Source of the DNA: Leptolyngbya sp. BC1307
GTDB taxonomy: Bacteria > Cyanobacteriota > Cyanobacteriia > Phormidesmidales > Phormidesmidaceae
DNA: 49,225 nt
Reading direction: 5' to 3'
Assembly: GCF_002286735.1 (NCBI RefSeq)
Contig: NZ_NRTA01000033.1
Span: forward strand, 1-49,225
Shown here: positions 1,792 to 42,893 of the stretch, one piece after another
How positions within the stretch are numbered: the first letter of the stretch is position 1
How the letters are laid out: each line of letters begins with the position of its first letter
The notes under the pieces: model-generated
Databases searched by the model: none
What the model was told of the DNA's origin: nothing
Seen by the model: the letters and a program-made list of their open reading frames with translations, nothing else
Program-made: the position numbers and the translations under genes

Positions 1792-4700
1792 ATGACCTAC
1801 ACCAAAGTCTCACTTGAACAAAGCCTGGGGGCGACTTTCCCCTTTGACCACCTGCCAGTAGCGGCCCTGGAGGCGATCGCCAGTAGCGGTCAAATGCTTC
1901 GGTATCGCATCGGTCAGCCGATCATGCGCCAAGAGCTAATGCCGCATCAACTGGTGGTCATTTTAGAAGGGCAGGGCAGACTACTGGGCGCTGACCCTTA
2001 CCAAAAGACGCCGATGACGCTGGCGCTATTGCAGCCGGGCGCGGCCTTAGGCTTGGCCGGACTGGTGCGAGGCGTGCCCTGCGAGCAGGCGATCGCCTCT
2101 TCAGAAGTGATCGCGGTGGCCGTGCCGATCACCACCATTCGGCAGCTGATGGGCGAGCACAAGAAATTTTCTGAGGCGATCGCCAGTCGCTGCTATTTGG
2201 CAGAAGTGTTTGATCTGGTGGCTCAGTACTTTAAGACGCAGGCTCGCAGCGTTGGCGACCTGGCTAAAACTGCCCAGCGGCTGCAGACAGAGGCGATCAC
2301 CGCTACCGTCAGCGCCGGGCCGATCAAGCTCACTGACCCCAACCCCCATCATCTGTGGTTCATTAGCTCTGAGACGATATCCAGCCATGCTGCCGGTAGC
2401 TGGCTTCTGCCTGAGATGCTAGATGGCCGCGTTACCTGCCAGCGCAATACCCGGCTCGTGGGTATTGACATGCGTCAGTTGGCTACTCAGCGGACAGAGT
2501 CGGATGGGGGAGCGATCGCGCTAGCCTCATCCACCGATCTTACAAAGGCCGATCTGACACAGACAGAGTCTACTGACGGTCAAAATGGCCATGCGCCGAT
2601 TCCCCCCAGGCATAGCCGCCCGATTAACGACAGCGGTATGCCGGTCCCCCAAGATCCTATTCCCTATGCGCCCGAGCTTTCCTACGGCTCCAACCTGATT
2701 GAGGCCGGTTCAGCCCGGGCCAGGGCGATCAAGTACCCGGTGCTGCGCGGTCGCGGCGAAGTGGGTTCAGCCCTGGCCTGCTTTGCCATGATGGCGCAGC
2801 ACTTAGGCATGCCTTTTAAGCGCGATGTGGTGCAGCGGGTGTTGTCCAACCAGAGCGAGCGATTGGGTCACCTGTCGCTGACGGCCTGCGGCGCAGTGGC
2901 CGACTTGGTGGGGTTAAAGCCGCAGCTTGCCAAAGTACCGGCAAGTGCCGTCGCTCGCCTGCCCAAACTAGCCCTGATCAAATGGCGAGACGGCTTTGCC
3001 GTGATCTACGAAACCTCCGAACGGGAATACGTTATCGGCGTACCCGCTGACAACAAGATTGTGCGCCACTCGCCGCAAGCCTTCGCCGAGATTTGGGGGC
3101 CAGAAGGGGAAATTTTACTGGTCGAAACCACTGAGCAAACGCCGCAGCAAAAGTTTGGGCTGGGCTGGTTTATCCCCTCACTAAAGCGCTATCGAGGCGT
3201 GCTGACAACAGTGCTAGTAGCCTCGTTGTTTGTGCAGGTATTTGGTCTGGCCAATCCGCTAATGGTGCAGGTAATCATCGACAAGGTGATTTTGCAAAAT
3301 AGTACCGATACTTTGCAGGTGCTGGGCATTCTGCTAGTCGTCGTCGCCATCTTTGAGGCGATTCTCACCAGTTTGCGCACCTACCTATTTGTCGATACCA
3401 CCAACCGGATTGACATGGCCCTCGGGGCCGAAATTATTGACCATTTGTTGCGGCTGCCACTGCGCTACTTTGACCGTCGCCCGGTGGGTGAGCTTTCTAG
3501 CCGGGTGAACGAACTTGAAAATATTCGTCAGTTTTTGACCGGTACCGCTCTGACGGTGGTGCTCGATGCGCTGTTTTCGGTGGTTTACATCCTGGTGATG
3601 TTTATCTACAGCGTGAAGCTAACCTTTGTCGCGCTGGCAACCATTCCGCTGTTTATGATTCTCACCTTTTTTGTCTCGCCGATTGTGCGCCGTCAGCTGC
3701 GGACTAAGGCTGAGCGCAATGCCGAGACCCAGTCTTTTTTGGTGGAAGCGCTCTCGGGTGTGCAGACGGTAAAAGCTCAAAATATGGAGCTAAAAACCCG
3801 CTGGAAATGGCAGGAAAAGTACGCTCGCTACGTCAGCGACGGTTTTAAAACCGTGCAGACTTCTACCACTGCCGGATCGGCCAGCGGCTTTCTCAATAAG
3901 CTATCGGGGCTTTTGGTGCTGTGGGTTGGGGCGACGCTGGTATTAGATGGAACGCTGACCTTGGGCGGCCTGATTGCCTTTCGCATTATCTCTGGCTACG
4001 TGACTCAGCCTTTGCTCCGCCTGACTCAGCTCTGGCAAAACTTTCAGGAGACGGCCCTATCGCTAGAGCGGCTGAGCGATATTATTGACTATCCTCAGGA
4101 GCAGGCCCCGGAAGATCGCGCTCAGATCCCGATGCCTGAGATTAGAGGCAATGTGCGCTACGAAAATCTTTCTTTTCGGTTTTCGCCTTCTGGCCCCCTG
4201 CAGCTAGTCAATGTCAACCTGGAATTTGCAGCGGGCGAATTTATCGGCATTGTCGGGCAGAGCGGCTCGGGTAAAAGTACGCTGATGAAGCTGCTGCCGC
4301 GCCTTTACAACGCCGAGTCGGGGCGAATTTTGATCGACAGTTACGACATCAGCAAAGTGGAGCTATATTCGCTGCGTCAGCAGGTGGGCATTGTGCCGCA
4401 AGATAGCTTGCTCTTCGAGGGCAGCATTCAAGAAAATATTGCCCTGACCAATCCGCAGGCCGATACTGACAGCATTGTCACAGCTGCAAAAATTGCCGGG
4501 GCTCATGACTTTATTATGGATCTGCCCAGTGGCTACAATTCCCGAGTGGGCGAACGGGGGGCTTCGCTCTCGGGCGGACAGCGGCAGCGAATTGCGATCG
4601 CCCGCACCGTCTTACAAAATCCTCGGCTGCTAATCTTAGACGAAGCCACCAGTGCCCTTGACTACGATACCGAAGCTCAGGTTTGCCGTAACCTGAAGCA

Positions 4701-4875
4701 GTGGGCCAATGGCCGCACCGTATTTTTTATTACGCACCGTCTGAGCACCATTCGCCAGTCCGACCGGATCTTGGTGATGGAAAAAGGAGCCGTCGTTGAG
4801 CTAGGCACACATGCTGAGCTGATGGCGCTCAAGGGTCGCTACTACTGCCTATCTGAGCAGAAGGGAGAGAACTAA
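1792..4875 (+). CDS. Type I secretion ABC transporter (cNMP-binding + C39-like + ABC)
   Basis: A 1027-residue HlyB-like exporter. Order of parts: a cyclic-nucleotide-binding-like domain (about 20-150), a linker, a C39-peptidase-like domain (about 310-440), a six-helix membrane domain (about 460-740) and a nucleotide-binding domain (about 790-1020). The ABC motifs are complete: Walker A GQSGSGKST near residue 824, signature LSGGQRQR near 926, Walker B LLILDEA near 946 and the H-loop ITHRLS. The C39 domain looks non-catalytic, because GSALACFAMM aligns with the usual DCGPACLAM and has Ser in place of the catalytic Cys. Such C39-like domains dock substrates instead of cutting leaders. The architecture matches cyanobacterial HlyB/HetC-type exporters. 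The HlyD gene follows after 2 bases, so the two are surely co-transcribed. The exported substrate is not identifiable here. Confidence 0.9.
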   Translation: MTYTKVSLEQSLGATFPFDHLPVAALEAIASSGQMLRYRIGQPIMRQELMPHQLVVILEGQGRLLGADPYQKTPMTLALLQPGAALGLAGLVRGVPCEQAIASSEVIAVAVPITTIRQLMGEHKKFSEAIASRCYLAEVFDLVAQYFKTQARSVGDLAKTAQRLQTEAITATVSAGPIKLTDPNPHHLWFISSETISSHAAGSWLLPEMLDGRVTCQRNTRLVGIDMRQLATQRTESDGGAIALASSTDLTKADLTQTESTDGQNGHAPIPPRHSRPINDSGMPVPQDPIPYAPELSYGSNLIEAGSARARAIKYPVLRGRGEVGSALACFAMMAQHLGMPFKRDVVQRVLSNQSERLGHLSLTACGAVADLVGLKPQLAKVPASAVARLPKLALIKWRDGFAVIYETSEREYVIGVPADNKIVRHSPQAFAEIWGPEGEILLVETTEQTPQQKFGLGWFIPSLKRYRGVLTTVLVASLFVQVFGLANPLMVQVIIDKVILQNSTDTLQVLGILLVVVAIFEAILTSLRTYLFVDTTNRIDMALGAEIIDHLLRLPLRYFDRRPVGELSSRVNELENIRQFLTGTALTVVLDALFSVVYILVMFIYSVKLTFVALATIPLFMILTFFVSPIVRRQLRTKAERNAETQSFLVEALSGVQTVKAQNMELKTRWKWQEKYARYVSDGFKTVQTSTTAGSASGFLNKLSGLLVLWVGATLVLDGTLTLGGLIAFRIISGYVTQPLLRLTQLWQNFQETALSLERLSDIIDYPQEQAPEDRAQIPMPEIRGNVRYENLSFRFSPSGPLQLVNVNLEFAAGEFIGIVGQSGSGKSTLMKLLPRLYNAESGRILIDSYDISKVELYSLRQQVGIVPQDSLLFEGSIQENIALTNPQADTDSIVTAAKIAGAHDFIMDLPSGYNSRVGERGASLSGGQRQRIAIARTVLQNPRLLILDEATSALDYDTEAQVCRNLKQWANGRTVFFITHRLSTIRQSDRILVMEKGAVVELGTHAELMALKGRYYCLSEQKGEN

Positions 4876-4877
4876 CG

Positions 4878-6443
4878 ATGACCAGCACTTCTGACCAGCC
4901 TCAGGCTGTCAACGTATCTAGTAATGGCAATGGCAATGGCAGCAAGGCCCTAGTCAACGGCAGCGGCGCAGGGTTGCCCCCCAATGACAACCCGCCGCAG
5001 TTTGACGCTTACATACCGCAGTCATTCGATAAGCCGGTGATCTTAAGGCAGTCGCCGCGCTGGTCGAAGGCGATTGTCTGGGCGATTATGGGCGTAACCT
5101 CAGCCTCAGTGCTGTGGGCCTGCTTAGCTAAAGTCGATGAAGCAATTACCGCTCAGGGCAAGCTCGAACCCGAAGGCGTTGTACAGGTGGTGCAGGCCCC
5201 TGTGGGCGGCGTAGTAGAAGAGATTTTGGTCGAAGAAGGCGAACAGGTAGAGAAAGGTCAGGTAGTTGCCACTCTGGATGAAACCACGACTGCCGCGCAG
5301 CTCAAGTCCAGTGAGGAAATTGCCGAACGGCTGCGGGCCGAAAGTGCCTACTACCGGGCTCAACTCAATGGCTCAGTAGATGCAGTTGCCCCAGAAGGGG
5401 TGTCTACTGACTTGATTCAGCGAGGACGCGATCGCGCCGAACTCGTCGCCAGCAACCGCCTGTACCGGGCCCAAATGGACGGCGGTACAGCGGGCCTTAA
5501 CCCCGAACAGCTAGACCGATTAGAAACCTCTCAGTCTCGGCTAAATTCGCAGCAGCAGATCAACCGCCTGCAAACTGATCAGTTCCGTGAGCAGATCGGC
5601 CAGACCCGCGTGCAGCTCAGCAATGCCAGGAGCGATCTGGCGACCAATCAGGAGATCTTATCCCGGCTAAAGGTGCTCAATGAGCAAGGCGCTGTCGCCG
5701 AACTCTCTTACCTCCAGCAAGAGCAAGAGGTGAATAATAAGCGGACAGAGGTAAATACCCTACAGCAAGAAATTGACCGACTGAGCTTTCAAATCTCTCA
5801 GGCGGAGCAGGAGGTCTCTCGCACCTCTTTTGAATCTCGCGAGAGCCTGCAAGACCGCATTTCAGTCAACGATCAGCGCATTGCCGAGATTGACAGTCAG
5901 CTCACCCAGCGAATTTTAGAAAACGACCAACAGCTCTCAGAGCTCGACGGCCAGCTTGCCGAACTCAATCAAAGCATTAAGTACCAGGAATTGACTGCGC
6001 CTGTGAGCGGCACTGTTTTCAATCTCAAGGCCAACCGAGCGGGCTATGTCGCCAACTCTACCGAGCCGATGATGGAAATCGTCCCTCAAGATGCGCTGGT
6101 GGCCCGCATATTCATCCCTAACAAAGACATTGGCTTTGTAGAAGTCGGCCAAAAAGTAGACGTACGAATTGATGCCTTTTCGTATAGCGAGTTTGGCGAT
6201 ATGGAGGGCACTCTGACGCGCATCGGTACTGACGCGCTCCCGCCGGATGAAGTCTTTCAGTACTACCGTTTTCCTGCGGAAGTAACGCTAGACGCACAGC
6301 AGTTTGTCGCCAATGGCAATGCCCTTAGCCTGCGCTCAGGCATGTCTCTCAATGCCAATATCAAACTGCGTAAGCGCCGGGTGATCACCTTCTTTACCGA
6401 TCTGTTTGTTCGCAAGGTTGACTCTGTCAAGTCTGGCAGCTAA
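4878..6443 (+). CDS. HlyD-family periplasmic adaptor subunit
   Basis: The 521-residue membrane fusion protein bridges the inner-membrane ABC exporter and an outer-membrane TolC-like channel. After a disordered Asn/Gly-rich N-terminus, one transmembrane helix lies at about residues 56-76. A biotinyl-lipoyl half follows (VVQAPVGGVVEEILVEEGE), then a long coiled coil at about 130-340 rich in Gln, Glu and Arg. The second lipoyl half (LTAPVSGTVFNLKA) and a beta-barrel domain close the protein. It starts 2 bases after the exporter stop codon, which fixes the operon. No TolC gene is in the window, so the channel must be encoded elsewhere. Confidence 0.92.
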   Translation: MTSTSDQPQAVNVSSNGNGNGSKALVNGSGAGLPPNDNPPQFDAYIPQSFDKPVILRQSPRWSKAIVWAIMGVTSASVLWACLAKVDEAITAQGKLEPEGVVQVVQAPVGGVVEEILVEEGEQVEKGQVVATLDETTTAAQLKSSEEIAERLRAESAYYRAQLNGSVDAVAPEGVSTDLIQRGRDRAELVASNRLYRAQMDGGTAGLNPEQLDRLETSQSRLNSQQQINRLQTDQFREQIGQTRVQLSNARSDLATNQEILSRLKVLNEQGAVAELSYLQQEQEVNNKRTEVNTLQQEIDRLSFQISQAEQEVSRTSFESRESLQDRISVNDQRIAEIDSQLTQRILENDQQLSELDGQLAELNQSIKYQELTAPVSGTVFNLKANRAGYVANSTEPMMEIVPQDALVARIFIPNKDIGFVEVGQKVDVRIDAFSYSEFGDMEGTLTRIGTDALPPDEVFQYYRFPAEVTLDAQQFVANGNALSLRSGMSLNANIKLRKRRVITFFTDLFVRKVDSVKSGS

Positions 6444-7820: not shown

Positions 7821-8052
7821 TTCTCCTATTAGCTTGACTGCCTGTGAAAATACGCTTATCTTCCTATCTTCTATGGTAGCGATCGCGCTTTCATACCATT
7901 CATGAAGAACCACGTCTAAATCTTCCCAGCCATCAGAGGCGATCGCTGCACTACTGGTATGCCTCAGAGTCTATGGACGTTTTTAGAGAGTAAATTCCGC
8001 ACCAAAAGATTCAAGAAAATGACAGGAGAAAAATTGAAATTTGCAAACAAAT

Positions 8053-8070
8053 AGGAGTTACGCATTGACA
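8053..8070 (+). repeat. Left terminal inverted repeat of the IS
   Basis: AGGAGTTACGCATTGACA. It equals the reverse complement of the right end except at position 5 (G here, C there). Confidence 0.88.
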
Positions 8071-8087
8071 AATACAGTGTGACAATG

Positions 8088-9110
8088 CTAGGCGAAAGCA
8101 GTTTCCTCCACGTTTTCTAGAATAAACTGGCGAATGACCGGCACAAATAGCTGACGCGATATCTCATAGCAGTTGTTGATGATCCCTTTGATGCACATCG
8201 TCTGTAGCTTGCAAAAAGCACGTAGTGCACAAAAAACGTGATTACGAATAGCCTGTTCATCTCGCACATAAAAGCGCTCGATATTACACACCTGTTTAAT
8301 CACTCTATGAAAACATTCAATCTGCCAATGCTCACTATGAACTTGCTTAAAGGTCTCTCGTGAGAGCTGTTTCAAAGCCTCTAAGTCTGGTCGATACAAG
8401 ATGTAATATCGCTGCTCGTTTTTGAACGGCGCACAAAACACTTTGACCCAGCCAAATGCCTTGAGATAGACCATCAAGCCATCAGCTGTAATCTCTAGAG
8501 TCCCTATCTGCACTGACGTTCCACGCTCTACCGAGACCAGCCGATTATTCGCTACCCCAAATAGAAAACCCACTTTCTCGTTTCTGAGAAACTTCAGATT
8601 CTCTAGGCTCGAATACCAACTGTCTCCGGTCACCCACGACGGCTTCAGGCCCCAGGATTGAACCTCTAGCACCATCTCTCTAAAATAGTCGTTCTTCGTC
8701 TTGCCCGCTGCTTTGTCATACAGTCTGAAGTTGACCGGATAAGAATGACCGGAGGGGTCACTGTAGTACAGAGTAATTAGGTTGAGTCCCTTCACCGGTC
8801 GCTTGTGCTTGCCCGAGTAAAAGTAATCCACCAAGGCACTTTTGCTGGGGTCGCGATACGGTTTGTCTTCCACACTATCGTCTACGCTGAGCGTCCCGGA
8901 TTCTAGGTTCAGCTCGCCTTTAACCTCGTCAAAGAGGTCTTTGGGCGTGTAACGTTCGCGTAATAAAAAGCGATTCACGCTATCGTGGCTCAAATCTGCC
9001 AAAATTTCTGAGAGCCGCACGCAGCTCACATACTTCGGCTCTGAGAGCAAAAATAAGGTGTAGAGCGTGCTATCGCACTGGGCTGTAGATGGTTTTGATA
9101 GCTCACGCAT
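8088..9110 (-). CDS. DDE transposase of the 8.05-9.19 kb IS
   Basis: A 340-residue transposase with an RNase H-like core. Candidate catalytic acids are the Asp in LSVDDSVEDKP (about residue 77), the Asp in VTGDSWYSS (about 161) and the Glu in HWQIECFHRVIKQ (about 280). The last motif resembles the Y-R-E-K region of IS4-type enzymes, with the E and K at the right spacing. The sequence looks closest to the IS4/IS701 group; exact family assignment needs a search. The frame is uninterrupted and the length is normal, so the element may still be active. Confidence 0.88.
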   Translation of the reverse strand: MRELSKPSTAQCDSTLYTLFLLSEPKYVSCVRLSEILADLSHDSVNRFLLRERYTPKDLFDEVKGELNLESGTLSVDDSVEDKPYRDPSKSALVDYFYSGKHKRPVKGLNLITLYYSDPSGHSYPVNFRLYDKAAGKTKNDYFREMVLEVQSWGLKPSWVTGDSWYSSLENLKFLRNEKVGFLFGVANNRLVSVERGTSVQIGTLEITADGLMVYLKAFGWVKVFCAPFKNEQRYYILYRPDLEALKQLSRETFKQVHSEHWQIECFHRVIKQVCNIERFYVRDEQAIRNHVFCALRAFCKLQTMCIKGIINNCYEISRQLFVPVIRQFILENVEETAFA

Positions 9111-9167
9111 GGCCTAGCGATCACTCAAAAAGAAGGGGGCTCCTGCCAGCATACAGGCTGGCTACTC

Positions 9168-9185
9168 TGTCAATGCGTAAGTCCT
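9168..9185 (+). repeat. Right terminal inverted repeat of the IS
   Basis: TGTCAATGCGTAAGTCCT, the reverse-complement partner of 8053-8070 with one mismatch. Confidence 0.88.
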
Positions 9186-9216
9186 AATAGTATTACGTTC
9201 CTCTCCTCCTCGAAAG

Positions 9217-9630
9217 ATGACTACTCCTACGGCTCCATCCTCAGAATTCCCAGACCCTGGACCAGATTTTGGCAGCCATGAAATGTCGGCCCTGTCCCCC
9301 ACCGCCCTGGCGCTTGTGGCAGACTTTTTTAAGGTGCTGTCTGAACCCAGCCGTCTTCAAATCCTCTGTGTTTTGAAAGAGGAGTCTAGAAATGTGAGTG
9401 AAATTGTCGAGGCGAGTGGGTTGGGGCAGACCAATGTCTCCAAGCATCTTAAAATACTGGCTCAAGCCGGTATCATATCTCGCCAGAGCTAGGGGGTCAG
9501 TGCTTATTACAGCATTGCGAACCCTTTTATCTTTGAGCTGTGCAACCTGGTTTGTAGCTCTCTGGCAATTCGCATGGAGCAGCAGTCTCAACTCTTAAAA
9601 GAATTTGCAGAGAGCGCTCACAGATCCTGA
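9217..9630 (+). pseudogene. ArsR-family metal-responsive repressor, broken by an in-frame TAG
   Basis: The reading frame from ATG 9217 to TGA 9628-9630 would encode 137 codons, but codon 92 (9490-9492) is TAG. Before it lies a typical ArsR winged-helix core: ALVADFFKVLSEPSRLQILC and the recognition helix region ASGLGQTNVSKHLKILAQAG. After it the same frame continues with GVSAYYSIANPFIFELC, which is exactly the wing and dimer-helix region of this family. TAG probably replaced a CAG (Gln) codon. The 91-residue remnant keeps the helix-turn-helix but lacks the wing and last helix. The IS ends 31 bases upstream, and no good ribosome-binding site is seen. It likely once controlled the neighbouring copper genes; that link is inferred. 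Confidence 0.85.
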
Positions 9631-9719
9631 TTGAATGCCGACCTGCCGATTCTTTCTCAGGAGACGGCGGGTCAGCACGCTATTTGGTTACGTTCTGAGC
9701 TGAGTTCGGCTAACAACAA

Positions 9720-9966
9720 CTATGCTGCTACAGCCACATCAGCCATTTTGCGATAGGCTTCAGCGCAAGCTTTGGCATGAGGAGCAGTGAAGTAAGAGCC
9801 TCGCACCATCAGTGTAGCCAAGCTCCGACAGCCTTCAGCGACACATACGAGCGCATTTTTTCATGTTTGCGGTGCCCATGCAGGCTTCGGCACAGTGCTC
9901 ACACTCCACCATACAAGCCATGAATTTATCGAAGTTAGATTGGTATTCTTCGTGTTGAAGAAGCAT
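9720..9966 (-). pseudogene. Four-helix-bundle copper-binding protein, frameshifted
   Basis: Translation from ATG 9966 gives a Cys-rich start (MLLQHEEYQSNFDKFMACMV, then CEHCAEACMGTANMKKCARMC) and stops soon after. The matching C-terminal half lies in another frame just downstream: AEGCRSLATLMVRGSYFTAP, ending at the TAG at 9720-9722. Together they form a DUF326-like four-helix bundle that binds copper through many cysteines. The total length, 247 bases, is one more than a multiple of three. Comparison with the usual C-x-x-x-C-R-D-C-A-E pattern suggests that about 8 bases were lost at the junction, although a single added base is also possible. It faces the multicopper oxidase gene, which fits a copper-handling cluster. 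Confidence 0.8.
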
Positions 9967-10195
9967 CGTGTTCACCTGTTGTTGGAGGCAAAATAAAGTG
10001 TAACAAAGTTTACTTCTGCCGGCACCCACCCGAAGAGCTAATGACAATCTCTTTCCCTTGAAGTAGGCCGATTTCACGCTGGTTTCATAATTGAGCTGTA
10101 GGCTGTATCGCCAGCGATCGCTTTTCGTATAACGGCCTATATTTTTGTTGTCTTTGTCGAGGTATTCGTTGGCAGATAATCTTTACAGAAAAGGA

Positions 10196-10227
10196 TTGAC
10201 TCTATACCCGGCTGTAGCGTTTACAGT
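10196..10227 (+). promoter_or_regulatory. Candidate MerR-type promoter of the multicopper oxidase
   Basis: TTGACT at 10196-10201 and TACAGT at 10222-10227 resemble -35 and -10 boxes but are 20 bp apart, longer than the normal 17. The spacer carries an imperfect dyad, CTATACCCGGCTGTAG (10202-10217), with 12 of 16 positions symmetric. A long spacer with a central dyad is the hallmark of promoters controlled by MerR-family metal sensors such as CueR. It ends 57 bases before the oxidase start. No MerR gene is in the window. The rest of the 317-base gap from 9967 to 10283 shows nothing clear. Confidence 0.45.
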
Positions 10228-10283
10228 GATTGCTGTGGGGTAATCGCCCCTAAAAAATCTGACTGAGGCTGGCTTCAACATCC

Positions 10284-11780
10284 ATGAGACCGATACAACG
10301 AAGAGACTTTTTGCGGCTGAGTGCAGGCACCACGGCGGCCATACTGCTGTCCCAGTGTTCCAGGTCGCGGCCCCAGTCCACTGCGCCCATCTCTGCGCCC
10401 ATCTCTGCGCCCATCTCTGCGCCCATTCAGTTTCAAAAGCAGACGAGCGAAGGCGGACTGCTCAGCCTGGATTTAGAGGCTAAAGCTCAGATGGTTCAGT
10501 TAGGCAATCGCCGCGCTAACTTGCTCACCTACAATGGTCAAATGCCTGGCCCGCTGCTAGAAGCCAGCCCAGGCGACAGGGTACAAATTCGCTTTACCAA
10601 TCAGCTCGATCAGCCGACGAATCTCCACTATCACGGGCTGCACATTCCACCAACAGGGACAGGTGACAATGTTTTCTTAGAAATTCCTACCGGTGAAAGC
10701 CACACCTACGAATTTGAGATCCCTGAGAACCATCCCGCCGGAACCTTCTGGTACCATCCTCACTACCACGGGCTCGTCGCCGAGCAGCTCTTTGGCGGCT
10801 TAGCCGGACTCTTTATCGTCCGGGGCGCGCTAGACGAAATTCCGGAGATTAAAGCGGCTCAAGAGGAATTCTTAGTGCTTAAAGACTTCGCGCTCGATGA
10901 CGGTGGCAACATTGCCGATACCGGCCATATGGCGGCAATGACTGGGCGAGTGGGCGGATTGCTAACGGCCAGCGGGCAGATCAATCCGGCGATAGCTATG
11001 GCAAAGGGCGGCCTGTTGCGATTGCGATTTTTAAATGCCTCCCCTTCTCGTTTCTTTCGCCTATCGCTAGAAGATCATCCAATGCACCTGATTGCCACAG
11101 ACGGCGGCGCTATCTCGTCACCGGTTGAGTTGAGTGATGTTGTACTAGCCCCTGGCGAGCGGGCTGAGGTATTGGTGCAGGGAAATCAAAAGCCGGGTGA
11201 CTATCGTCTGATCAACCGACCTTTCAATCCTGCGCAAGGCGGCATGATGGGTGGCACGATGGGGGGACAAAATTCAGACCGTGCTGAGACGGTGGCAACG
11301 CTCACTTATGACGGCGAGAGGAGCGAGATTTCTCTACCCAGTCAGCTCATCGCAGTTGAGCCCTTACCGGAACCGCAGACGACCCGGCAGTTCACATTGA
11401 ACCACGGCATGGGCGGCGGTATGATGGGTGGCGGTATGATGGGTGGCGGCATGGTGTTTATGATTAACGGTCGAGCCTTCGATCCCAACCGCATTGATAC
11501 TCAAGTGATGTTGGGCACTGTTGAAGACTGGGAGATTATAAATACGGGCTCAATGGCTCATCCCTTCCACGTTCACACCAACAAGTTCCAAATTGTCAGC
11601 CAGAATGGTCAGCCTATGCCTTATTCGGCATGGAAGGATGTGGTGTCGGTGAGCCCCGGCGAAACTGTTCGGATTCGGATGCCTTTTCGTGACCACACTG
11701 GTAAAACGGTTTACCACTGCCACGTGCTCGACCACGAAGATCGCGGCATGATGGGAATCTTGGAAATACAACAGGCTTAG
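10284..11780 (+). CDS. Multicopper oxidase (Tat-exported, CueO/laccase-like)
   Basis: A 498-residue three-cupredoxin oxidase. The N-terminus has a twin-arginine signal (RRDFLRLSAG) followed by an apolar stretch ending LLSQC, so export in the folded state is expected, possibly with lipid anchoring. All four copper-binding segments are present: HYHGLHIPP (about 115-123), WYHPHYHG (157-163), HPFHVH (426-431) and HCHVLDHEDRGM (478-489), with Cys, His and axial Met for the type 1 site. Met/Gly-rich stretches (GGMMGG repeats at about 320 and 376) recall the copper-binding Met-rich insert of CueO. This points to cuprous-ion oxidation and copper tolerance rather than lignin-type substrates. It is intact while its metal-related neighbours are broken. 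Confidence 0.93.
   Translation: MRPIQRRDFLRLSAGTTAAILLSQCSRSRPQSTAPISAPISAPISAPIQFQKQTSEGGLLSLDLEAKAQMVQLGNRRANLLTYNGQMPGPLLEASPGDRVQIRFTNQLDQPTNLHYHGLHIPPTGTGDNVFLEIPTGESHTYEFEIPENHPAGTFWYHPHYHGLVAEQLFGGLAGLFIVRGALDEIPEIKAAQEEFLVLKDFALDDGGNIADTGHMAAMTGRVGGLLTASGQINPAIAMAKGGLLRLRFLNASPSRFFRLSLEDHPMHLIATDGGAISSPVELSDVVLAPGERAEVLVQGNQKPGDYRLINRPFNPAQGGMMGGTMGGQNSDRAETVATLTYDGERSEISLPSQLIAVEPLPEPQTTRQFTLNHGMGGGMMGGGMMGGGMVFMINGRAFDPNRIDTQVMLGTVEDWEIINTGSMAHPFHVHTNKFQIVSQNGQPMPYSAWKDVVSVSPGETVRIRMPFRDHTGKTVYHCHVLDHEDRGMMGILEIQQA
10381..10426 (+). repeat. 12-bp tandem repeat coding for Ala-Pro-Ile-Ser
   Basis: Three exact copies of CTGCGCCCATCT plus a 10-base partial copy lie just after the signal-peptide region of the multicopper oxidase. 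They keep the frame and encode repeated APIS units as a linker. Copy number is likely to vary between strains by slippage. Confidence 0.85.
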
Positions 11781-11829
11781 AAGCTAGAGATGCTAAGCCA
11801 TGCTACAAAACAGAAATTAAGGAAGACTG

Positions 11830-12091
11830 ATGGAACTTCGCACTGCCCAGCTGATTTTGCCTTTGGGGAAAAACGATGGCGTCGCTCTCAGCTTTCGCGT
11901 GAAAGACGTTGATGAAGCTTGCGAATATCTCGAAGCCAAGACTGTAGAAAGCCAAGACTGTAGAAATCGTTAGTCCACCCTGTAATTTTGCCGATTTGGG
12001 AATTAAAGCAGCGCTAGCTCGCGATCCTGACGGTCATTTGATCGAGCTGACTCAGATGGGCGATATGGTAGGTGCAGACTCCAACGGATAA
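11830..12091 (+). pseudogene. VOC-family (glyoxalase-like) gene remnant
   Basis: The ATG at 11830 opens a frame for the second half of a glyoxalase/VOC domain (NDGVALSFRVKDVDEACEYL). A 16-bp tandem duplication at 11935-11966 shifts the frame and causes an early stop. If one copy is removed, the protein reads on as TVEIVSPPCNFADLGIKAA and ends with RDPDGHLIELTQ, the typical metal-ligand Glu strand of VOC proteins, stopping at 12091. The first half of the domain (about 55 residues) is absent, and the 49 bases between this frame and the oxidase cannot hold it. So the gene is both 5'-truncated and frameshifted. The original substrate cannot be inferred. Confidence 0.82.
11935..11966 (+). repeat. 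Exact 16-bp tandem duplication inside the VOC remnant
   Basis: GCCAAGACTGTAGAAA occurs twice back to back (11935-11950 and 11951-11966). Sixteen is not a multiple of three, so this duplication alone explains the frameshift. Its perfect identity suggests a recent event. Confidence 0.92.
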
Positions 12092-12122
12092 GCAGAAATG
12101 GGATTGAAGGTGCGGAAAAGCG

Positions 12123-12824
12123 ATGGCTAAAAAGAAGCAGCGGCTAAAACTTTTATTGAACAGGCAGAATCTGATTGCGTTGGCCGTTCTACTGCTGTCT
12201 CTGCTAGTTTACGCCTGGGTGTCGACCCAGATAGACGCGAATCTATTAACGCCTGAAGGGTTACAGCAAGCCGTCACCAATGCGGGTATCTGGGGCATAT
12301 TGGTTTATATTGCAGTCATTGCCCTGGCCGTAGTGATGAGTCCTATACCAGGCGCACCTTTGACGATCGCAGCAGGTGCTGTATGGGGCGCTATTCCGGC
12401 TGGTATTTACAGTGTCATTGGTGGGTTTTCAGGCAGCCTGATTGCCTATTTTATTGGGCGATCGCTCGGTCGCTCAGCCGTGAAAGCGCTAACCGGTAAA
12501 ATCATCTACTTTTCAAAAGAGAAAGGAGAATGGCTATTAGGTGGACTCATCTTTGTGACTCGTCTGCTGCCAGTACTGTCTTTTGACTTAATCAGCTATG
12601 GCGCAGGGCTTACGGGGTTATCTCTACCCATATACGCTTCATCAACGCTCCTCGGCATGATTCCATCAACGCTGCTACTGACTTATTTGGGTGAAGCTTT
12701 TACGCTGGGTGCTTGGCCTGCGGTCACGCTCTCCTTATTATTCGTCGCGCTCCTGGTGCTTTTACCCTGGGGCATCCGCCGATACAACTGGTTTGGTTTA
12801 CGAGACATCGTTCGTATCGAGTAG
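12123..12824 (+). CDS. TVP38/TMEM64 (DedA-like, VTT domain) membrane protein
   Basis: A 233-residue integral membrane protein. After a basic N-terminus (MAKKKQRLK) it has a first helix at about 16-34, then the VTT/SNARE-associated core with re-entrant Gly/Pro-rich segments: MSPIPGAPLTIAAGAVWG, the FSGSLIAYFIGRSLGR stretch and FVTRLLPVLSFDLISYGAGL. Relatives in bacteria are linked to membrane homeostasis and phospholipid scrambling. In cyanobacteria they often sit beside metal genes, as here next to the copper cluster, but no metal role is visible in the sequence. It starts 31 bases after the VOC remnant, in the same direction as the oxidase. A terminator-like hairpin follows. Confidence 0.85.
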   Translation: MAKKKQRLKLLLNRQNLIALAVLLLSLLVYAWVSTQIDANLLTPEGLQQAVTNAGIWGILVYIAVIALAVVMSPIPGAPLTIAAGAVWGAIPAGIYSVIGGFSGSLIAYFIGRSLGRSAVKALTGKIIYFSKEKGEWLLGGLIFVTRLLPVLSFDLISYGAGLTGLSLPIYASSTLLGMIPSTLLLTYLGEAFTLGAWPAVTLSLLFVALLVLLPWGIRRYNWFGLRDIVRIE

Positions 12825-12845
12825 TTATCCGCTAAAGAAAAGTTT

Positions 12846-12867
12846 TCAACAATGGGAGCTTTGTTGA
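12846..12867 (+). terminator. Stem-loop after the TVP38-like gene
   Basis: TCAACAA at 12846-12852 pairs with TTGTTGA at 12861-12867 around an 8-nt loop, and TTTTGAT follows. It lies 21 bases past the stop at 12824. The remainder of the 330-base gap up to 13154 shows no gene or clear signal. Confidence 0.5.
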
Positions 12868-13154
12868 TTTTGATGGCAACCATCCAGCAGTTCTGCCTTA
12901 TTCTGTATTCTTTCGACTGACGAACAGCCGAGCTACAGCCTTCAATTACGCTGCGTCCCAAACATAGAGTGAAAATTGATTTGCAACGAAAGCCAACAAA
13001 CTGACAGATAAATATGAAATCAAGATAAAATGGCGCTCTCTCACTTGAAACAATTCATACTTGTTGCAGAGGTGTGGGGCCTATTTCTGGAGAGAGATGA
13101 AGTTCTGAAAACCAGATGGTATATTGCCTTCATGCAAATTTTGAGAGAGCCACC

Positions 13155-13745
13155 GTGAGTGCCAATAAATCAACAACAGTAAAACCTTCCGATAGGCAAG
13201 ACCATAAAGAGATGAAAGGCGGAATGCAGAGCAGCTACGCTCGGTTCTTCGCCATGATAGGCACCTCTATTGTCGTCATGTTCTTTCTTATGTACGTACA
13301 CTCCTATCAGGTTCTTGACCACGCTTGGTTTAGTGAAACCAGAATGTTCATGGCGCTTATCATGGGTGCGGCAATGATGGTAATCATGCTATCGTTCATG
13401 CTCAATATGTACAAAAACAAGAAGGTCAATATCGCGATCTTCTTGAGTGCCATTGTATTGTTTGGGTCGTCTTTGTAGCTAGTGCGCAGTCAGATTACAG
13501 TCAACGACGTAGACTGGATGGAAGGCATGATTCCGCACCACTCGATTGCGATCTTGACGAGCGAGCGAGCCCGGATAGAAGACCCACGCGTCCGCGAGCT
13601 TGCCGACGAAATTATCGAAGGGCAGCGTCGAGAAATTAATGAAATGGAGTGGCTGATCGCTGACATCAACGAGAGCGGGATCGTCAATACACCTGAAGAA
13701 GCCGAAGCCAGGCTGATGCCAGAGTTCTCTTCTCAACCGGAGTAA
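13155..13745 (+). pseudogene. DUF305 membrane protein, split by an in-frame TAG
   Basis: One continuous frame runs from a GTG at 13155 to the stop at 13743-13745, interrupted only by TAG at 13476-13478. The first part holds membrane helices (YARFFAMIGTSIVVMFFLMY, ALIMGAAMMVIMLSFML and a third helix). The second part is the DUF305 core with WMEGMIPHHSIAILTSERA, whose Met and paired His are thought to bind copper. Family members run through this point as LW-LVRSQ, so TAG most likely replaced TGG (Trp). A GTG at 13482 could restart translation, but the product would lack the membrane helices. Neighbouring copper genes fit a metal-tolerance role for the intact ancestor. Confidence 0.85.
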
Positions 13746-14471: not shown

Positions 14472-15166
14472 ATACTGCGAACTGTGGCTTCGCCATCTGT
14501 GACTTCGCCGATCAGCACTTCGGTGGCAAGGCCGATAAACAGTCCATTATCCAGTACGCCTGGAATATTGTTGATGTCTTTTTCCATCTCAGCCGGGTTG
14601 TCGATGCCGTTAAAGGTGACATCGAGCACCATATTACCCTGATCGGTGATGACTGGGCCGTCTTTTTTGATGCCCATACGCATTTCTACTTTGCCGCCGA
14701 GCTTTTTTAGGGCGCGAGTGACGGGGGCGATCGCCATCGGAATCGCTTCTACGGGCAGCGCAAAGATCGTGCCAATTTTGTTGCTCAGCTTGGAGCTATC
14801 GACCACCACAATAAATCGCTCAGCGAGCCCATCGATCACTTTTTCACGGGTGTGAGCTGCGCCGCCGCCCTTAATCAGATTCATCTGCGGATCAACTTCA
14901 TCAGCGCCGTCAATAGCAATGTCAATATGATCCACATCGTCTAGCGTGGCCAGCGGAATACCGTGTTGCTTGGCCAATACCGATGCCTGAAAAGAAGTCG
15001 GGATGCCCTTAATATCTTTGAGTTCGCCTGAGGCAATCCGTTCGCCGATGAACTGAATGGCAAAGGCCGTCGTCGAACCAGTGCCCAAGCCTACAACTGT
15101 GCCAGATTTGACCTGCGCAGCAGCGGCGCGACCGACTTCCTGCTTCATCAGCTTGACGGGATCCAT
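14468..15166 (-). CDS. rpiA: Ribose-5-phosphate isomerase A
   Basis: The enzyme interconverts ribose 5-phosphate and ribulose 5-phosphate in the pentose phosphate and Calvin cycles. The 232-residue length is normal. Diagnostic motifs are the phosphate loop [12 protein letters not shown], the catalytic region [31 protein letters not shown] and VVVDSSKL. The ATG at 15166 is preceded on its strand by AGGAGATAAACCCTC, a plausible ribosome-binding region. It is divergent from the alpha/beta hydrolase gene, with a 71-base gap. Everything looks intact. Confidence 0.97.
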
Positions 15167-15237
15167 GAGGGTTTATCTCCTAAAACTGTCTTTGATCTAT
15201 AGCATGGAGGAAAGCGGGTAGCGAGTAAAGTGACTGC

Positions 15238-16182
15238 ATGGAGCCTATTCTCTCTTCTTCAAATCCTGGTACTTTTTCGTTGGGCGAGCAGCGCTTTTGG
15301 CACTGGCGCGGCTGGCGAATTCGCTACACCCATTTAGCCGAGTCGCCTGGCACTCAAAATGAACCCCCCTTTTTGTTGCTACATGGGGCGGGCTCCAGTC
15401 TGGAGCAGTGGCGAGCAAATTTGACCGCTCTGGCTCAAGAGCGGCCAGTCTATGCGCTCGATTTGGTCGGCTTTGGCGGATCTGAAAAGGTCGCTACTGA
15501 GTTAAATACTGACCTGTGGGTGGCGCAGGTGGCCGCTTTTTGGCAGAGCTATCTGCGTCGCCCGATGATTTTAATGGGCCATTCGCTGGGGGCCTTGGTA
15601 GCTTTGCAATCGGCTACAAGTCACCCCGAGCAGGTGGCCAGGTTGATTATGCTGACGCTGCCAGCGGCCCGCCAGGAACTAGGCGGTACGGCGGCGCAGG
15701 TGGGTGCGGTGGTAGAGCGCTGGTTTGCTTCACCCCTACTGCTTCGTCCTTTGTTTAAGCTAGTGCGCCGACCCGGGCTGATTCGCTCGGTGCTGCTGAA
15801 GCTGCATCTGGATGCCAGCCGGGTCGATCAGGTGTTGGTAGATGCGTTTGTGCGGCCCACTCAGGGGCGCGGCGCGGCGCGAACTTTTTGCTATTTGGTG
15901 AAGTCACGGACATCCGACAGCTTTAGTCCGATGACGCGAGATTTGATTCCCCTGGTGCAGGTACCGACACTGCTGCTGTGGGGTAAGCGCGATCGCGTCA
16001 TTCCCATTGCTTGGGGCCAGTATGTCAATACGCTCAGCGCCCAGCTTACCTTCGTAGAAGTCGAGGATGCAGGGCACTTTTTTTACGACGAAAGTGCCGC
16101 TAATCTGCACGATCTAGTTGATCGGTGGTTAGCAGACCAGCTACCAGCGACGAACGAGAACTTGATAGACCCGAAGCCCTGA
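15238..16182 (+). CDS. Alpha/beta hydrolase
   Basis: A 314-residue alpha/beta-fold hydrolase. The oxyanion-hole motif LLLHGAGSS, the nucleophile elbow MGHSLGAL (Ser116), the acid in LLLWGKRDRVIP and the His in VEDAGHFFYDE give a full catalytic triad. A cap domain of about 70 residues lies between the elbow and the acid strand. Such proteins in cyanobacteria are annotated only as hydrolases or haloperoxidase/esterase relatives, and the substrate cannot be read from the sequence. No signal peptide is evident, so it is probably cytoplasmic. It is transcribed away from rpiA and converges on the CHRD gene. Confidence 0.88.
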   Translation: MEPILSSSNPGTFSLGEQRFWHWRGWRIRYTHLAESPGTQNEPPFLLLHGAGSSLEQWRANLTALAQERPVYALDLVGFGGSEKVATELNTDLWVAQVAAFWQSYLRRPMILMGHSLGALVALQSATSHPEQVARLIMLTLPAARQELGGTAAQVGAVVERWFASPLLLRPLFKLVRRPGLIRSVLLKLHLDASRVDQVLVDAFVRPTQGRGAARTFCYLVKSRTSDSFSPMTRDLIPLVQVPTLLLWGKRDRVIPIAWGQYVNTLSAQLTFVEVEDAGHFFYDESAANLHDLVDRWLADQLPATNENLIDPKP

Positions 16183-31642: not shown

Positions 31643-33985
31643 TTAGAGGTCGTCACTCCCTGTGTAGGTGAAAAGGGGGCCAAAATCATTTTCTGATAGC
31701 GCCTGAGTCTGCTGCGGTTGAGCTAGTTCAGAGAGATCGAGGGGAGATTTCCACCAGTCGGGTAGTGAAACGGCGACTGACGAGCCGCTGAGACTGCTGC
31801 GCGGGGAAGCGAGTATCGCGATAGGAACAATCATTTCCTGCGGATTGATGCCGCCGTGGTAGCCGTGTTTTTTGGCTGGGCTGTAGCGAATTTTTTCTGT
31901 CCAGGGGGCGATCGCCGCAGAGCCTTCTATCAAGACACGCTTTCCTTTGATCTGAAGTTCTTGCTCGCTAGGCTGGTCGCTATTGGTGCGCCAGCGTTCG
32001 CCGCCGTCACCGGGCTGGTACTGGGTGCTGTTGTGGAGGATGTGACCATGATCGCTAGTGAGAATAACCACTCTGCTGGCATTCAGGGCAGATTGGAGGA
32101 TGGGTTTCAGGACTTTAATATGCTCAAACGTCCAGCTTGTGTCTATCTGATCGCCTTTGCTGAGGAGGTCATCGACTGCGTTGATCACCAGCGCCACAAT
32201 CTGGTGCTGGTCTGATTCGATAGCGCTGCGCAGGTCGGCGGCGAGCGTGGGGCTGTCAGTCGATTGGAGGGCGGCTTTGTGAAAAAGCAGCGGCGGGGCG
32301 TCGCGTTTGCAGTACTTAAGCAGGCTGGGATGCGCGGTGAAGCCCTGGGTTTCTTGGGGGGCTTTGCCTGACTGGATCTGACCGCAGAAAAGGCTGGTGC
32401 GAGAGGTCGCAGTGATAGAGGGAATGGTGGCTAGGGCAGGTTGGATGGGGCGGATGAGGTGCCAGGGCTGCTCTAGCGTGGAAAGTAGCTCGTGACAGAC
32501 GGCCAGACTCATGCCGTCGATGACGATGAGCAAAACGGGATCTTTTTCGGCGAGGGGGGCGATGACGGCATCGAGCACATTCTCGATGGGGAGGATTGTT
32601 GTTTGGGTAGAGCCAACTTCAGTCCAGTCTTTGAGGAGATTGGCGAACTGATGGGACTGGGTTTCTCGAATGTGGGTGATGGTGTTGAAGAGCTGGCCAT
32701 AGGCGGCACAAAGGTCTGGGTTGGGTTCGGCCAGTGGCAGGGTGAGTCTGGCCCAGTCGAGGAGGCTACCGGTGTCGGTGTGGTAGGCGATCGCCTCTTC
32801 CAAAGACTGCGGTTCAGATTGGGTTTCAGCAGGGGGGTGCTGGCGATCGCTCACTAACCACTGAGCCAGCCGCAAGGCCATTTCTACGCGCTGAATCCGG
32901 CGGCTCAGCGGCTCTATCTGTTCATGACTTTGAAGGGTTTGGTAGGTCTTCTTGAGTTTGTTTAAGTGAGTGGGGCTGGGCTTTTTCACTAGCGCAGTGA
33001 GCTGTTTGCTGAAGCTCGTGAGGTGCTGGTCAAAGCCTCGCTCTGAGATAGTGCTGAGGTAGGCAAACTCTTGGGCTCCTATTTCAGTGAGAATGGCATC
33101 ACTGCGCTGGATTAGGGCGTACCGCGTTTCTGCCGGTAGGGGTTGCAGGCTTTGGTGAGCGGCTTTGCTCCACCGGCGCATGGTTTCAGGGCTGGGGGAA
33201 TGGCCAGCCAGAAAGCGCTCTTCGAGTTTGCCGATGGCTTTGTCGAGCTTGCCTTGGGCAGCGGGGTGGTAGATGACGGCGGCGGCCAGGCCGAGAGGGA
33301 GGGCATCGGGCTTTTGGCTGTGGGCAGCGCAGTGGAGGATGGTTTTGGCGGTGGAGCCAGCGAGGCCAATAAGCCAGTCGGCGGCGGCGGTGCGAAGGTC
33401 TGGCGAGGTTTGCTGGTAGCGTTCTACATTCTCTGGGTGAGTTGACCAGGCTAGAAGTGCAGGCAAGTCAGGCCGGTTGGCTTGTAGATGAATGTGCTGA
33501 TGCAGCAAAATGGGCCAGACGATTTCGGCATCTAAAAAGCCGCCTAGAACGGGCGGATAGCCGTTGCCTGGAATGGCGTCCATCAGGGCTTCGGGAATCC
33601 AACTGTGCTGAATTAGTCGCGGGTCAATATTGGTGGCGCTGAAGAGAGATTTGACAATTTGCCAGGGGGTGATGGTGAAGAGGCGCTGCTTGGCTAGGCG
33701 CAGGCAAATGTCTGCTTCGATGTCGTCGTCAGATAGGGGGGTGACAATCACCTGGATCAGATTTTGATCAGTGGCGCGTTCCTGGTCGCCCTTTTGGAGG
33801 GCAATCCGCAGTGCCAGAGGGGAGTCGCACTGGTCGATCCGGTAGGGCTGATTGCCGACTTGCTGCTGGCGATCGCCTGTCCACCGGCCCTGAGTGTGAA
33901 TACCGATGACCTGGCTGCGGGGCGATCGCTTCCGAATTGCTTCGACCTGGGCTTTGATTTGGCTGAAGGTAGGGGCGGCGATCAC
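31643..33985 (-). CDS. pglZ: PglZ, alkaline-phosphatase-superfamily protein of BREX type 2
   Basis: The 780-residue protein has a helical N-terminal half (about 1-470) and a PglZ domain in the C-terminal half. Metal-site motifs of the alkaline phosphatase superfamily are present: VLLIVIDGMS (Asp490), ILTSDHGH (Asp645, His646, His648) and KHGYHGGINPQE (His710). PglZ is shared by all BREX types; its enzymatic role is debated, with phosphatase or nuclease activity proposed. The GTG start overlaps the pglY stop by 4 bases (GTGA), showing tight translational coupling. The length is somewhat shorter than actinobacterial PglZ proteins as I recall them. Confidence 0.9.
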   Translation of the reverse strand: MIAAPTFSQIKAQVEAIRKRSPRSQVIGIHTQGRWTGDRQQQVGNQPYRIDQCDSPLALRIALQKGDQERATDQNLIQVIVTPLSDDDIEADICLRLAKQRLFTITPWQIVKSLFSATNIDPRLIQHSWIPEALMDAIPGNGYPPVLGGFLDAEIVWPILLHQHIHLQANRPDLPALLAWSTHPENVERYQQTSPDLRTAAADWLIGLAGSTAKTILHCAAHSQKPDALPLGLAAAVIYHPAAQGKLDKAIGKLEERFLAGHSPSPETMRRWSKAAHQSLQPLPAETRYALIQRSDAILTEIGAQEFAYLSTISERGFDQHLTSFSKQLTALVKKPSPTHLNKLKKTYQTLQSHEQIEPLSRRIQRVEMALRLAQWLVSDRQHPPAETQSEPQSLEEAIAYHTDTGSLLDWARLTLPLAEPNPDLCAAYGQLFNTITHIRETQSHQFANLLKDWTEVGSTQTTILPIENVLDAVIAPLAEKDPVLLIVIDGMSLAVCHELLSTLEQPWHLIRPIQPALATIPSITATSRTSLFCGQIQSGKAPQETQGFTAHPSLLKYCKRDAPPLLFHKAALQSTDSPTLAADLRSAIESDQHQIVALVINAVDDLLSKGDQIDTSWTFEHIKVLKPILQSALNASRVVILTSDHGHILHNSTQYQPGDGGERWRTNSDQPSEQELQIKGKRVLIEGSAAIAPWTEKIRYSPAKKHGYHGGINPQEMIVPIAILASPRSSLSGSSVAVSLPDWWKSPLDLSELAQPQQTQALSENDFGPLFTYTGSDDL

Positions 33986-36900
33986 GAGTTAGCACTCTCC
34001 TCTTGCACGATCCAACGAATGCCGAGGCGGAGAGTTTGCCCCGGTTTGAGGTCTTTGCCTAGCCGGGCCAGTAGCGTTTCAGCTTCAGGTAGGGTGAGAT
34101 CGCTTTGACTGTCTTCGCTGACTGTCCGTCGGATGGGGGTGGTAGAAGCGGTAGTTTCTTCCTTTGTTGTAGTTTCGGGCGGCGTGACGGGTGGCGGTGT
34201 GACGGGTGGCGGCTGTGGTGGCTGGTATGTGAGGAGCCGGACGGCGGCACTGTGGGAGGCTTTGAGCGATGGCCCCAAGGCGACTACATGTTCGTCGCTG
34301 CTGAGAGTGTTAACTAGCGTTGCCAGAAGGTTGCTGGCTTTGGCCTGACGGTCGTCGGTGAGGGCGGTAATGCCTTCAAAGATGTCCCAACTGGTACTGT
34401 TGAGCGTGCCGGTGAGATTGGCGGCTTTTTTCAGGCATTCGGCCATGGCGGATTCGGAGGTGGCGATCGCACAGTCTGCCAGCACCTCAACCACCTCTTC
34501 TGCTTTAGCCGCGCTGAGCTGTTCTACCAGGGCGAGCGTCGTGGTGGCGGTCGTCAGTCGGTCATAGGTCTGATCGAGATTGAGTGTATCTGGCACGTGC
34601 TGCAAAGCCTGCACGTAGCTCTGACAGCTCTCTAGGGCGGCGGTGGCTCTGGTCTGTACTTTAGTCTCCAGGCTGGCGACGGTGCTGGCTTTGCGCAGAG
34701 CCGTGACAGAAATACCGAAAATGTCTCTGGCCCTTTGAATGGCGGTTGCCCACTGGGCTTCGTCAGGGAGCTTTTGTTCTCGCAGCTCGCAGTCACTGGG
34801 AATGTCTTTGATCGTGACATCGAACGGGGTATTGTGGCGGAAGAAGCTGCGTCCGGTTTGTTCGGCGTAGGTGAGGATGATCAGGTTTTGCAGTTCTTTA
34901 GAGAGGCCCATGGCTCGGGGCTGGTCGATCCACTGGCGGATCTGGCTGACCTGAGGAGCGCCGCTAATTTCGGCGATTTTTTTGACGAAGTGGTTTTTCC
35001 AGTGCTGGCCGAGCACAAAATGGGTTTCGGCCATTTCGCCGAGCAGCAGGGGATTGGCAATTTGTTTGAGGAAAGGGCGCATAGGCCGATCTATCTCTAA
35101 TCGACCGTCGGCGGTTTGGGCGGCTGGGCTGATCTGCTCGTAAACCTTTTGCAGCGTGTTGATCCTGCTAACGTCGGTTTCAAAGTCGGGGGCGGCGGGA
35201 AATTCGTGGGCGAGAGCCTGATCTAGCAGATGTTTCAGGCCCTTTTCCAGGTTAGCGGCGGTGGGGGGCTGCAAGTCAAAGCCGGGTTGCAGGGAGACAA
35301 ACTGTTCGTTTAGCTCCAGGCGAGCGGAGGTGCTGATAGCGCTTGGGGATTGGCTGATGCCGTAAGCGGCGTCTAAGTGGTTGCGTACTCTTTGGGTGAG
35401 GACGCTGCGTTGGTTTTCGAGCAGAGATTTGGCAGTTTGGCGATCTTGCAGGGAGAGATAGGTGGCGTATTCGGTGAATCTTTCGCCAGTGAGCACGTGC
35501 TCTAAAATAAGCAGCGTGCCAAGATCTTTTTTGGCGTCATCACTGAAAAAGGAGGGAATCCAGCAGAGGGTTTTGGCCCCACCTTTGTGCTTTCCTTTGA
35601 ATTTTTCGCACTTTTGCCAGTCGTCTTTGGGAGAGCGGTTGGCTTCGTCGAAAGGGTAGTCGATGACTAACTTCCAGCGCTCGTCTAAATTTTCTAAAGA
35701 GGCGTCGGGCAGCTCCCAGATATTGCCAAAGACAACAACGCAAGATCGCTTAGTGTTTTTCCAGGTGAAGTCGTGATATTGCTCGAACTGCTCTTCTCCT
35801 TTAATGTTGAGCTGAGCGTAAACCATGTCGCGAATCAGGCGAATACGGTTGCCGCGATTGTCTTCTCGCTCGGCCTGTTTGAGAATGCTGTCGGTATCTA
35901 CGCCGGAGAGCTGAATGGAGATGGTGGGGTTTGAAGATTCTTCGCCGATGCGGATTTCGCCGATGCTGGCAGCCCAGGTACGACAGCGCTCTAGCACAAG
36001 ATTGCTTTCGCGGCCAGGAATGGGAGACTTGATGGTGCCGTGATTGAGATTGGCGAGGCGTTCGGCGCTGAGATTGCGGAGAGATTCGACTTCGGGGACG
36101 AGGGCTGAGAGCAGGAGCGTTTTGACCAGGCGGTCGTCGTTGCGGAAGGCGAGGCGTTTGGGGTCGGTGGGAATGAGCTGTTCGAGGTCTTCCTGATGAC
36201 CGTGCTTTTTCTCTAGCTCGGGCAGGAGCTTTTGCTGGTAGAGGCGTTTGGCGTTGTTGAAGTGGGTGGCCATTTCGGGGCTAAAGGCTTCGTCACCGTG
36301 GGCGACGACATCGAACAGGTCACCGACGGGGACAATGTCGCCGACTTTGAGGGTGTCGCGGTGGTCTACTAGGAGCTGCATCATCACCTTGAGGGCGGTG
36401 CGCTCCCTTTGGAGCACGCTGGAGACGGCGATCAGAGTTTGTACCAGGGCGGGGCTGAAGGGGTAGACCTTGCGAAACATTTCTCGGTCGCCGGCACTGG
36501 TGAGCAGCGTATTCATCACCGATTCGCGTACCTTTGCGGTGGTTTCAAAGGCGGCATTGAGTTCTTCGCGGGCGGATTGGGTTTTGCATTTGAGGATGCG
36601 CTTTTCGGCGATCGCTGGCAAATTTCGATCTTCCAGCGTAATCCGGTCAAAGCGGCCTTCCCAGTGCTTGAGCGCGTCGCTAAAGTTGAGCCGTTCTGCG
36701 CCGGGGATGGAGTCGCCGATCAGTTCGCTGAGGTCGCGCTGGCGGGCGACAAAGCTGATGATGGGAACGGGGCGATCCGCATTCTGGGCTTCGACAAGTT
36801 TGGAGAGTTTTTGGCCTTCTTGGTGAATGAATTTGAGGTCGGTGGCGCGGCTGGCCAGCCAGAGAATGAGTTCGTCGAGAAAGAGAATGAGGGCGTCGTA

Positions 36901-37671: not shown

Positions 37672-37704
37672 AAGAATAGGCGTGAGGACTTCGTTGTAAA
37701 GCTT

Positions 37705-38058: not shown

Positions 38059-38059
38059 A

Positions 38060-38395: not shown

Positions 38396-38474
38396 GGCTT
38401 GGTAACGATGAGGGTAGGTAGACTACTGTTTTCCGGGCCTGGGGGTTCCTTTTATTGTGTCGTAAAAGTTTGGT

Positions 38475-42866: not shown

Positions 42867-42893
42867 ATCAACTCCCTCATGCTTCCTACCAGT

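Follow-up and report, generated by a model that had tools for sequence, protein, structure and literature searches.

The window analysed here, a stretch of DNA of 49,225 nucleotides, is one contig (C33) of a 4.9 Mb genome assembled in 222 contigs, and its relatives and named matches are cyanobacteria. Between positions 9217 and 13745 lie, from left to right, an ArsR-type gene, a four-helix gene on the minus strand, a multicopper oxidase (MCO), a VOC remnant, a VTT gene and a DUF305 gene. Four of these six (ArsR, four-helix, VOC and DUF305) carry an inactivating change relative to intact homologues and are regarded as probable pseudogenes; the MCO and VTT genes are intact. The features, some of them defined by comparison with homologous loci in other genomes (numbered with L), are as follows.

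8052..9186, minus strand: insertion sequence with terminal inverted repeats and a DDE transposase gene at 8088-9110 (Pfam DDE_Tnp_1); ends set against other copies
9217..9630, plus strand: ArsR/SmtB-type repressor gene, broken by an in-frame TAG at 9490-9492 (Pfam HTH_5, 2.4e-13; above the cut-off of NCBIfam HTH_metalloreg)
9720..9966, minus strand: Csp-like four-helix copper-storage gene, broken by loss of the frame at about 9839/9840 and with a shortened 3' part
10072..10087, no strand: direct repeat TTTCAN6TTTCA upstream of the four-helix gene, a possible response-regulator box
10196..10227, plus strand: predicted promoter-like element upstream of the MCO gene, presumably of MerR type; from a pattern scan, with similar elements upstream of the MCO in L023, L024, L026 and L032
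10284..11780, plus strand: MCO gene, intact (Pfam Cu-oxidase_3, Cu-oxidase_2 and Cu-oxidase, all above cut-offs)
11781..11829, plus strand: site of a DUF2933 gene that is open in L023 between MCO and VOC; here perhaps only its short ends
11830..12091, plus strand: VOC/glyoxalase remnant; N-terminal part absent, frame shifted by a 16-bp tandem duplication at 11933-11964
12123..12824, plus strand: TVP38/TMEM64 (VTT) membrane protein gene, intact (Pfam VTT_dom, 5.6e-23; 91% identity to L023)
13015..13030, no strand: degenerate TTTCA repeat upstream of the DUF305 gene, a putative copy of the repeat upstream of the four-helix gene
13158..13745, plus strand: membrane-anchored DUF305 gene, broken by an in-frame TAG at 13476-13478; start at 13158 probable

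The first-pass annotation had called four genes broken and two intact. Each of the lesions was indeed seen in this one assembly, namely TAG codons in ArsR and DUF305, a frameshift in the four-helix gene and the duplication in VOC, and the MCO (10284-11780) and TVP38-like (12123-12824) frames are open. Elsewhere in the window (31643-47102) lie BREX/Pgl-like defence genes with strong matches to PglZ, BrxC/PglY, PglX and PglW models, whose four long frames run without interruption.

Gene products and open congener copies

Locus L023 (contig C205 of congener G003; also retrieved as L053) of cf. Phormidesmis sp. LEGE 11477, which gives the strongest match among the named genomes, is collinear with the copper part of the window and has open frames. 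In the same orientation it carries genes for a four-helix protein, a Met-rich peptide, MCO, DUF2933, VOC, VTT and DUF305, all of them open. The comparison with close relatives carrying intact versions that the first-pass annotation had proposed thus bears it out for the copper part, which is open and in the same order here, with no ArsR gene present. Between VTT and DUF305, L023 also holds a cytochrome P450-like gene (3776-5146, read from its translation).

Set against L023, the window has lost more than was first noticed. Its DUF2933 gene is absent, as is the N-terminal part of VOC, whose duplication at 11933-11964 is a perfect tandem copy; nothing in window positions 9001-14000 matches the Met-rich peptide. 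An open VOC copy also occurs in genome G005.

Among solved structures, the MCO is best matched by laccases, for example 9cpm and 2xu9. Assignment to the CueO type (249.3 bits; NCBIfam cut-off 525) or the CopA type (copper_res_A, 125.1 bits; cut-off 478.95) was rejected.

According to the alignment, the four-helix gene lacks 8 bases at about 9839/9840 relative to the L023 copy and is shorter in its 3' part. It resembles the Csp1/Csp3 copper-storage proteins in its Cys-rich four-helix sequence, and the open L023 copy matches solved Csp chains (phmmer, best 9.2e-10). It differs in that the window copy is frameshifted and shortened, and in that even the open congener copy falls below the NCBIfam Csp1 cut-off (45.8 against 100 bits). 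Open copies are also found in G007 and in a second island of Oscillatoria sp. CS-180. The TTTCA repeat pattern upstream of this gene is also present six times within the 16-kb L023, and the repeats may therefore have arisen by chance.

In the DUF305 gene, the TAG separates the hydrophobic part from the DUF305 domain, which scores 42.4 bits against a Pfam cut-off of 27. As described in its published account (PMC4335983), CopM of Synechocystis sp. PCC 6803 likewise combines a DUF305 domain with a cyanobacterial copper setting; the window protein differs from CopM as described there in having a hydrophobic part before the domain, in its interruption and in its CopM score. The read-through protein reaches 41.9 bits against the NCBIfam CopM cut-off of 90, and it was not classed as a CopM metallochaperone. 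Open DUF305 copies exist in G001, G005, G007, G016 and G027.

The ArsR-type gene and the adjoining insertion sequence

The TAG of the ArsR-type gene falls directly after the HTH, and the frame continues past it to the normal end. Read through, the protein scores 81.8 bits against NCBIfam HTH_metalloreg (cut-off 55), placing it in the ArsR/SmtB metalloregulator family. A BigR-type sulfur sensor was considered and rejected (38.6 bits; cut-off 155), and the hint of a link to sulfur comes solely from the gene context of some relatives. With names read from translations, YeeE/YedE-like neighbours were recognised beside two of seven ArsR relatives (L148 and L150), a TauE-like neighbour beside one (L149), and neither kind beside the other four; the best-scoring relative in the genus, in congener G002, adjoins YeeE/YedE-like and MBL-fold genes. 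The first-pass annotation had counted ArsR as part of the copper cluster. Its absence from the L023 cluster and the company kept by its best genus relative argue otherwise, and the gene is probably a neighbour, broken separately, rather than a member of the copper module. Control of the copper genes by ArsR was set aside because the gene is missing from the L023 cluster and its best relative stands beside sulfur-type genes.

Only 30 bp separate the start of ArsR from the end of the transposon on its left. This element is multi-copy, with 21 transposase matches in the genome, many of them at contig ends. The target repeats flanking the copy at 8052-9186 are mismatched, and the left one equals the repeat beside the copy that starts contig C28, which suggests either that transposon copies have recombined here or that the assembly was joined here. 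The matching target repeats would fit a former junction of C28 with the left part of the window, but the genes tested from both sides lie far apart in congener G002, where gene order did not decide the matter.

Nature and timing of the lesions

The doubtful join at the transposon, where the left target repeat matches that of the C28 copy, and the fragmentation of the genome into so many contigs would both fit a local sequencing or assembly error, behind which all four genes would really be intact. The join, however, lies outside the four genes. Two of the lesions are in-frame TAG codons and the others a 16-bp tandem duplication and deletions, and the short stretches checked around four of them contain no run of more than five equal bases, the one run of five adjoining the ArsR stop. 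Moreover, the MCO and VTT frames and those of the window's long BREX-like genes are open. Poor local assembly, regarded by the first-pass annotation as the main alternative, is thus unlikely given the kinds of lesion, the lack of long single-base runs and the position of the join.

Both nonsense lesions being TAG, and both frames being conserved beyond the stop, the codon could conceivably be recoded or read through, leaving ArsR and DUF305 functional as they stand. We regard this as highly improbable because TAG is a normal stop here, ending 15 of the 32 window genes, including MCO and VTT. Furthermore, in congeners G001, G003 and G005 the DUF305 gene is free of internal stops (those counted in G003 and G005 fall ahead of its start and at its end), and ARAGORN found no tRNA at all, hence no suppressor, in the window, which was the stretch searched. 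Recoding would also leave the four-helix and VOC lesions unexplained.

Alternatively, the split genes might act as shorter products, in the form of a truncated ArsR and a DUF305 domain re-started at GTG 13482. An 87-aa open frame does begin two codons past the DUF305 stop, and in L028, from another genus of the family, the four-helix gene is kept in frame at a reduced length of about 54 aa. Yet the re-started domain would lack the hydrophobic anchor and presumably be cytosolic, and the truncated ArsR lacks the last part of the protein, which in this family is needed for pairing. With no such rescue seen for the VOC and four-helix frames, shorter products are quite improbable as an explanation. 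Judged from the sequence, the decay is ordinary recent pseudogenization.

Against L023, dN/dS is 0.062 for MCO and 0.074 for VTT, and the readable broken parts are hardly above these intact neighbours, at 0.096 for the four-helix N-part and 0.08 for the VOC C-part, values that come from only 41 and 42 codons. Because the broken parts are so little raised and so short, relaxed selection is inferred from the lesions rather than from substitution rates. The low dN/dS of the readable parts (0.06-0.10) in turn makes the decay appear recent: the broken genes were constrained for most of the time since the split from the L023 species, and the lesions look recent. As dS is saturated for the window's DUF305 and ArsR genes, these two give no date. 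The first-pass suggestion that only the oxidase was kept clashes with its own remark on the TVP38-like gene and does not hold, since VTT is intact as well, sharing 91% identity with the congener copy and showing a similarly low dN/dS.

In a homology control within the same genome, 20 of its stretches (391,578 bases) plus the window were matched against 883 open frames drawn from 60 stretches (1.2 Mb) of congener G002. It yielded 50 comparable genes, 4 of which were flagged as broken: two adjacent ones on L044, which look like wrong start sites, and two on L048. Seven of the 50 lie in the window, none of them flagged. The cluster, with 4 of 6 genes broken, thus stands out from the control (4 of 50; Fisher p = 0.0025), as it does with ArsR left aside (3 of 5; p = 0.012), both p values being optimistic in that the cluster was picked for looking broken and the control is weighted towards conserved genes. 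This control replaced a self-trained coding-potential scan of the 391,578 sampled bases and the window, which was run at three settings and dropped. The strict setting gave no flags and missed the known lesions too; the two looser ones picked up the DUF305 stop but none of the other three known lesions, along with 7 other places in the window and, in the sample, 30 and 42 places, many of them where neighbouring genes meet.

The island in relatives and a plausible cause of its decay

A survey of 58 genomes for the MCO gave a match in 41. The window and 11 near full-length, single-piece matches of at least 72% identity were taken as loci (L023-L032 and L077), with L053-L056 repeating L023, L027, L028 and L030 and counted once. 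Two-piece matches of 68-71% (G007 C1 and G020 C222) and most of the MCOs of still lower identity fell outside the neighbour survey; at 13 named loci with an MCO of about 50-64% (L057-L069), no accessory match was found. The MerR-type-like element of the window, 88 bases upstream of the MCO, was also sought across the 12 loci with a loose pattern within 450 bases upstream. It matched in six (the window, L023, L024, L026, L028 and L032), the L028 match being unlike the rest, and in none of the other six.

The MCO is whole in all 12 loci, whereas traced accessory copies are broken in 3 of 6 cases for the four-helix gene, 3 of 8 for VTT, 2 of 5 for DUF2933 and 2 of 7 for DUF305. Altogether 10 of 26 accessory genes are broken against 0 of 12 MCOs (one-sided p = 0.011), or 8 of 23 against 0 of 11 once the window, selected as a broken case, is set aside (one-sided p = 0.027); these values are to be read in the light of loci having been found via the MCO, which favours whole MCOs, and of related genomes not being independent. 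The counts were made by reading, cover matches of at least 38% identity except the weak L024 DUF305 matches (44%, about 48 residues), which were dropped, and leave out VOC, the window's missing DUF2933 and any gene lost without trace.

Four other genomes (L024, L027, L028 and L032) thus also have broken accessory genes next to an MCO of this clade, and the lesions differ. In Vasconcelosia minhoensis LEGE 07310 (L027) a stop interrupts the four-helix gene, VTT is cut and DUF305 carries a frameshift. In Oscillatoria sp. CS-180 (L028) the four-helix gene is shortened in frame and DUF2933 is fused to VTT, the second island of this strain (L077) being whole; VTT is shortened in frame in L032 (G010), and DUF2933 is cut in L024 (G005). 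At L028 7100-7330 the four-helix gene is cut in frame to about 54 residues, from which a smaller product might still be made, and at 15100-15500 a deletion fuses DUF2933 to the VTT tail. A deletion at L032 1460-1830 joins both VTT ends in frame. More distant MCOs are not always spared, as short or two-frame matches show (e.g., G029 C220, G034 C21 and G005 C28). The pattern of an oxidase kept while its partners erode is suggestive only in these relatives. As a tentative and rather doubtful extension, the MCO might be the sole part of the island under lasting selection across the clade, with storage, binding and membrane partners repeatedly gained alongside it and later lost again, often through deletions that in some cases kept the frame. 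If true, the island would be a unit that is built up and eroded time and again around a single enzyme.

For the window itself, it is likely that a copper-detoxification island is in recent decay after the need for binding and storage was lost, probably through backup copper loci, the broken ArsR being a separate matter. In the intact island, an exported MCO would oxidise Cu(I), the Csp-like protein would store Cu(I), and the DUF305 protein would bind copper on the membrane's outer face. The lineage may then have lost its need for the binding and storage parts, this need probably being covered by a second copper locus on contig C24 and another DUF305 gene on C4. On contig C24 of the own genome, open frames encode a further MCO of 521 aa, a P-type ATPase of 755 aa and a cupredoxin-like protein of 169 aa, the latter two named from their translations and the ATPase also backed by an E1-E2 ATPase search, which gave 7 matches without internal stop in the genome. 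The C4 gene has no internal stop and matches nearly the whole family model. Redundancy is therefore plausible as a reason for relaxed selection; it does not cover the four-helix gene, because a whole-genome search found no second one.

The first-pass proposal of lost selection on most of the module fits in that congener copies are open, the lesions are of distinct kinds and few genes are flagged elsewhere in the genome sample (4 of 50); it went too far in that VTT is kept too and ArsR probably lies outside. Pseudogenization is a familiar fate of bacterial accessory resistance genes, and the present case is alike in its several independent lesions within a small gene group, with no difference in kind; recurrence around one oxidase clade is the sole added point. 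Among the matches listed, as far as titles and abstract openings tell, no published report of this decay was found. It leaves the understanding of copper resistance unchanged, and it shows which parts of a cyanobacterial copper island are dispensable; the partly broken islands form a natural set for testing whether the oxidase alone protects.

A related arrangement is found in the metal-resistance stretch of the Stanieria cyanosphaera plasmid pSTA7437.01, with MCO, DUF2933, ICMT, DUF1622, TVP38, P-type ATPases, MerR and RppA/RppB. It differs in being plasmid-borne and in having no VOC, four-helix or DUF305 gene annotated in the stretch, according to a gene table that is incomplete and omits pseudogenes. 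What the two share is a metal-resistance setting in which an MCO is followed by DUF2933 and a TVP38/VTT gene.
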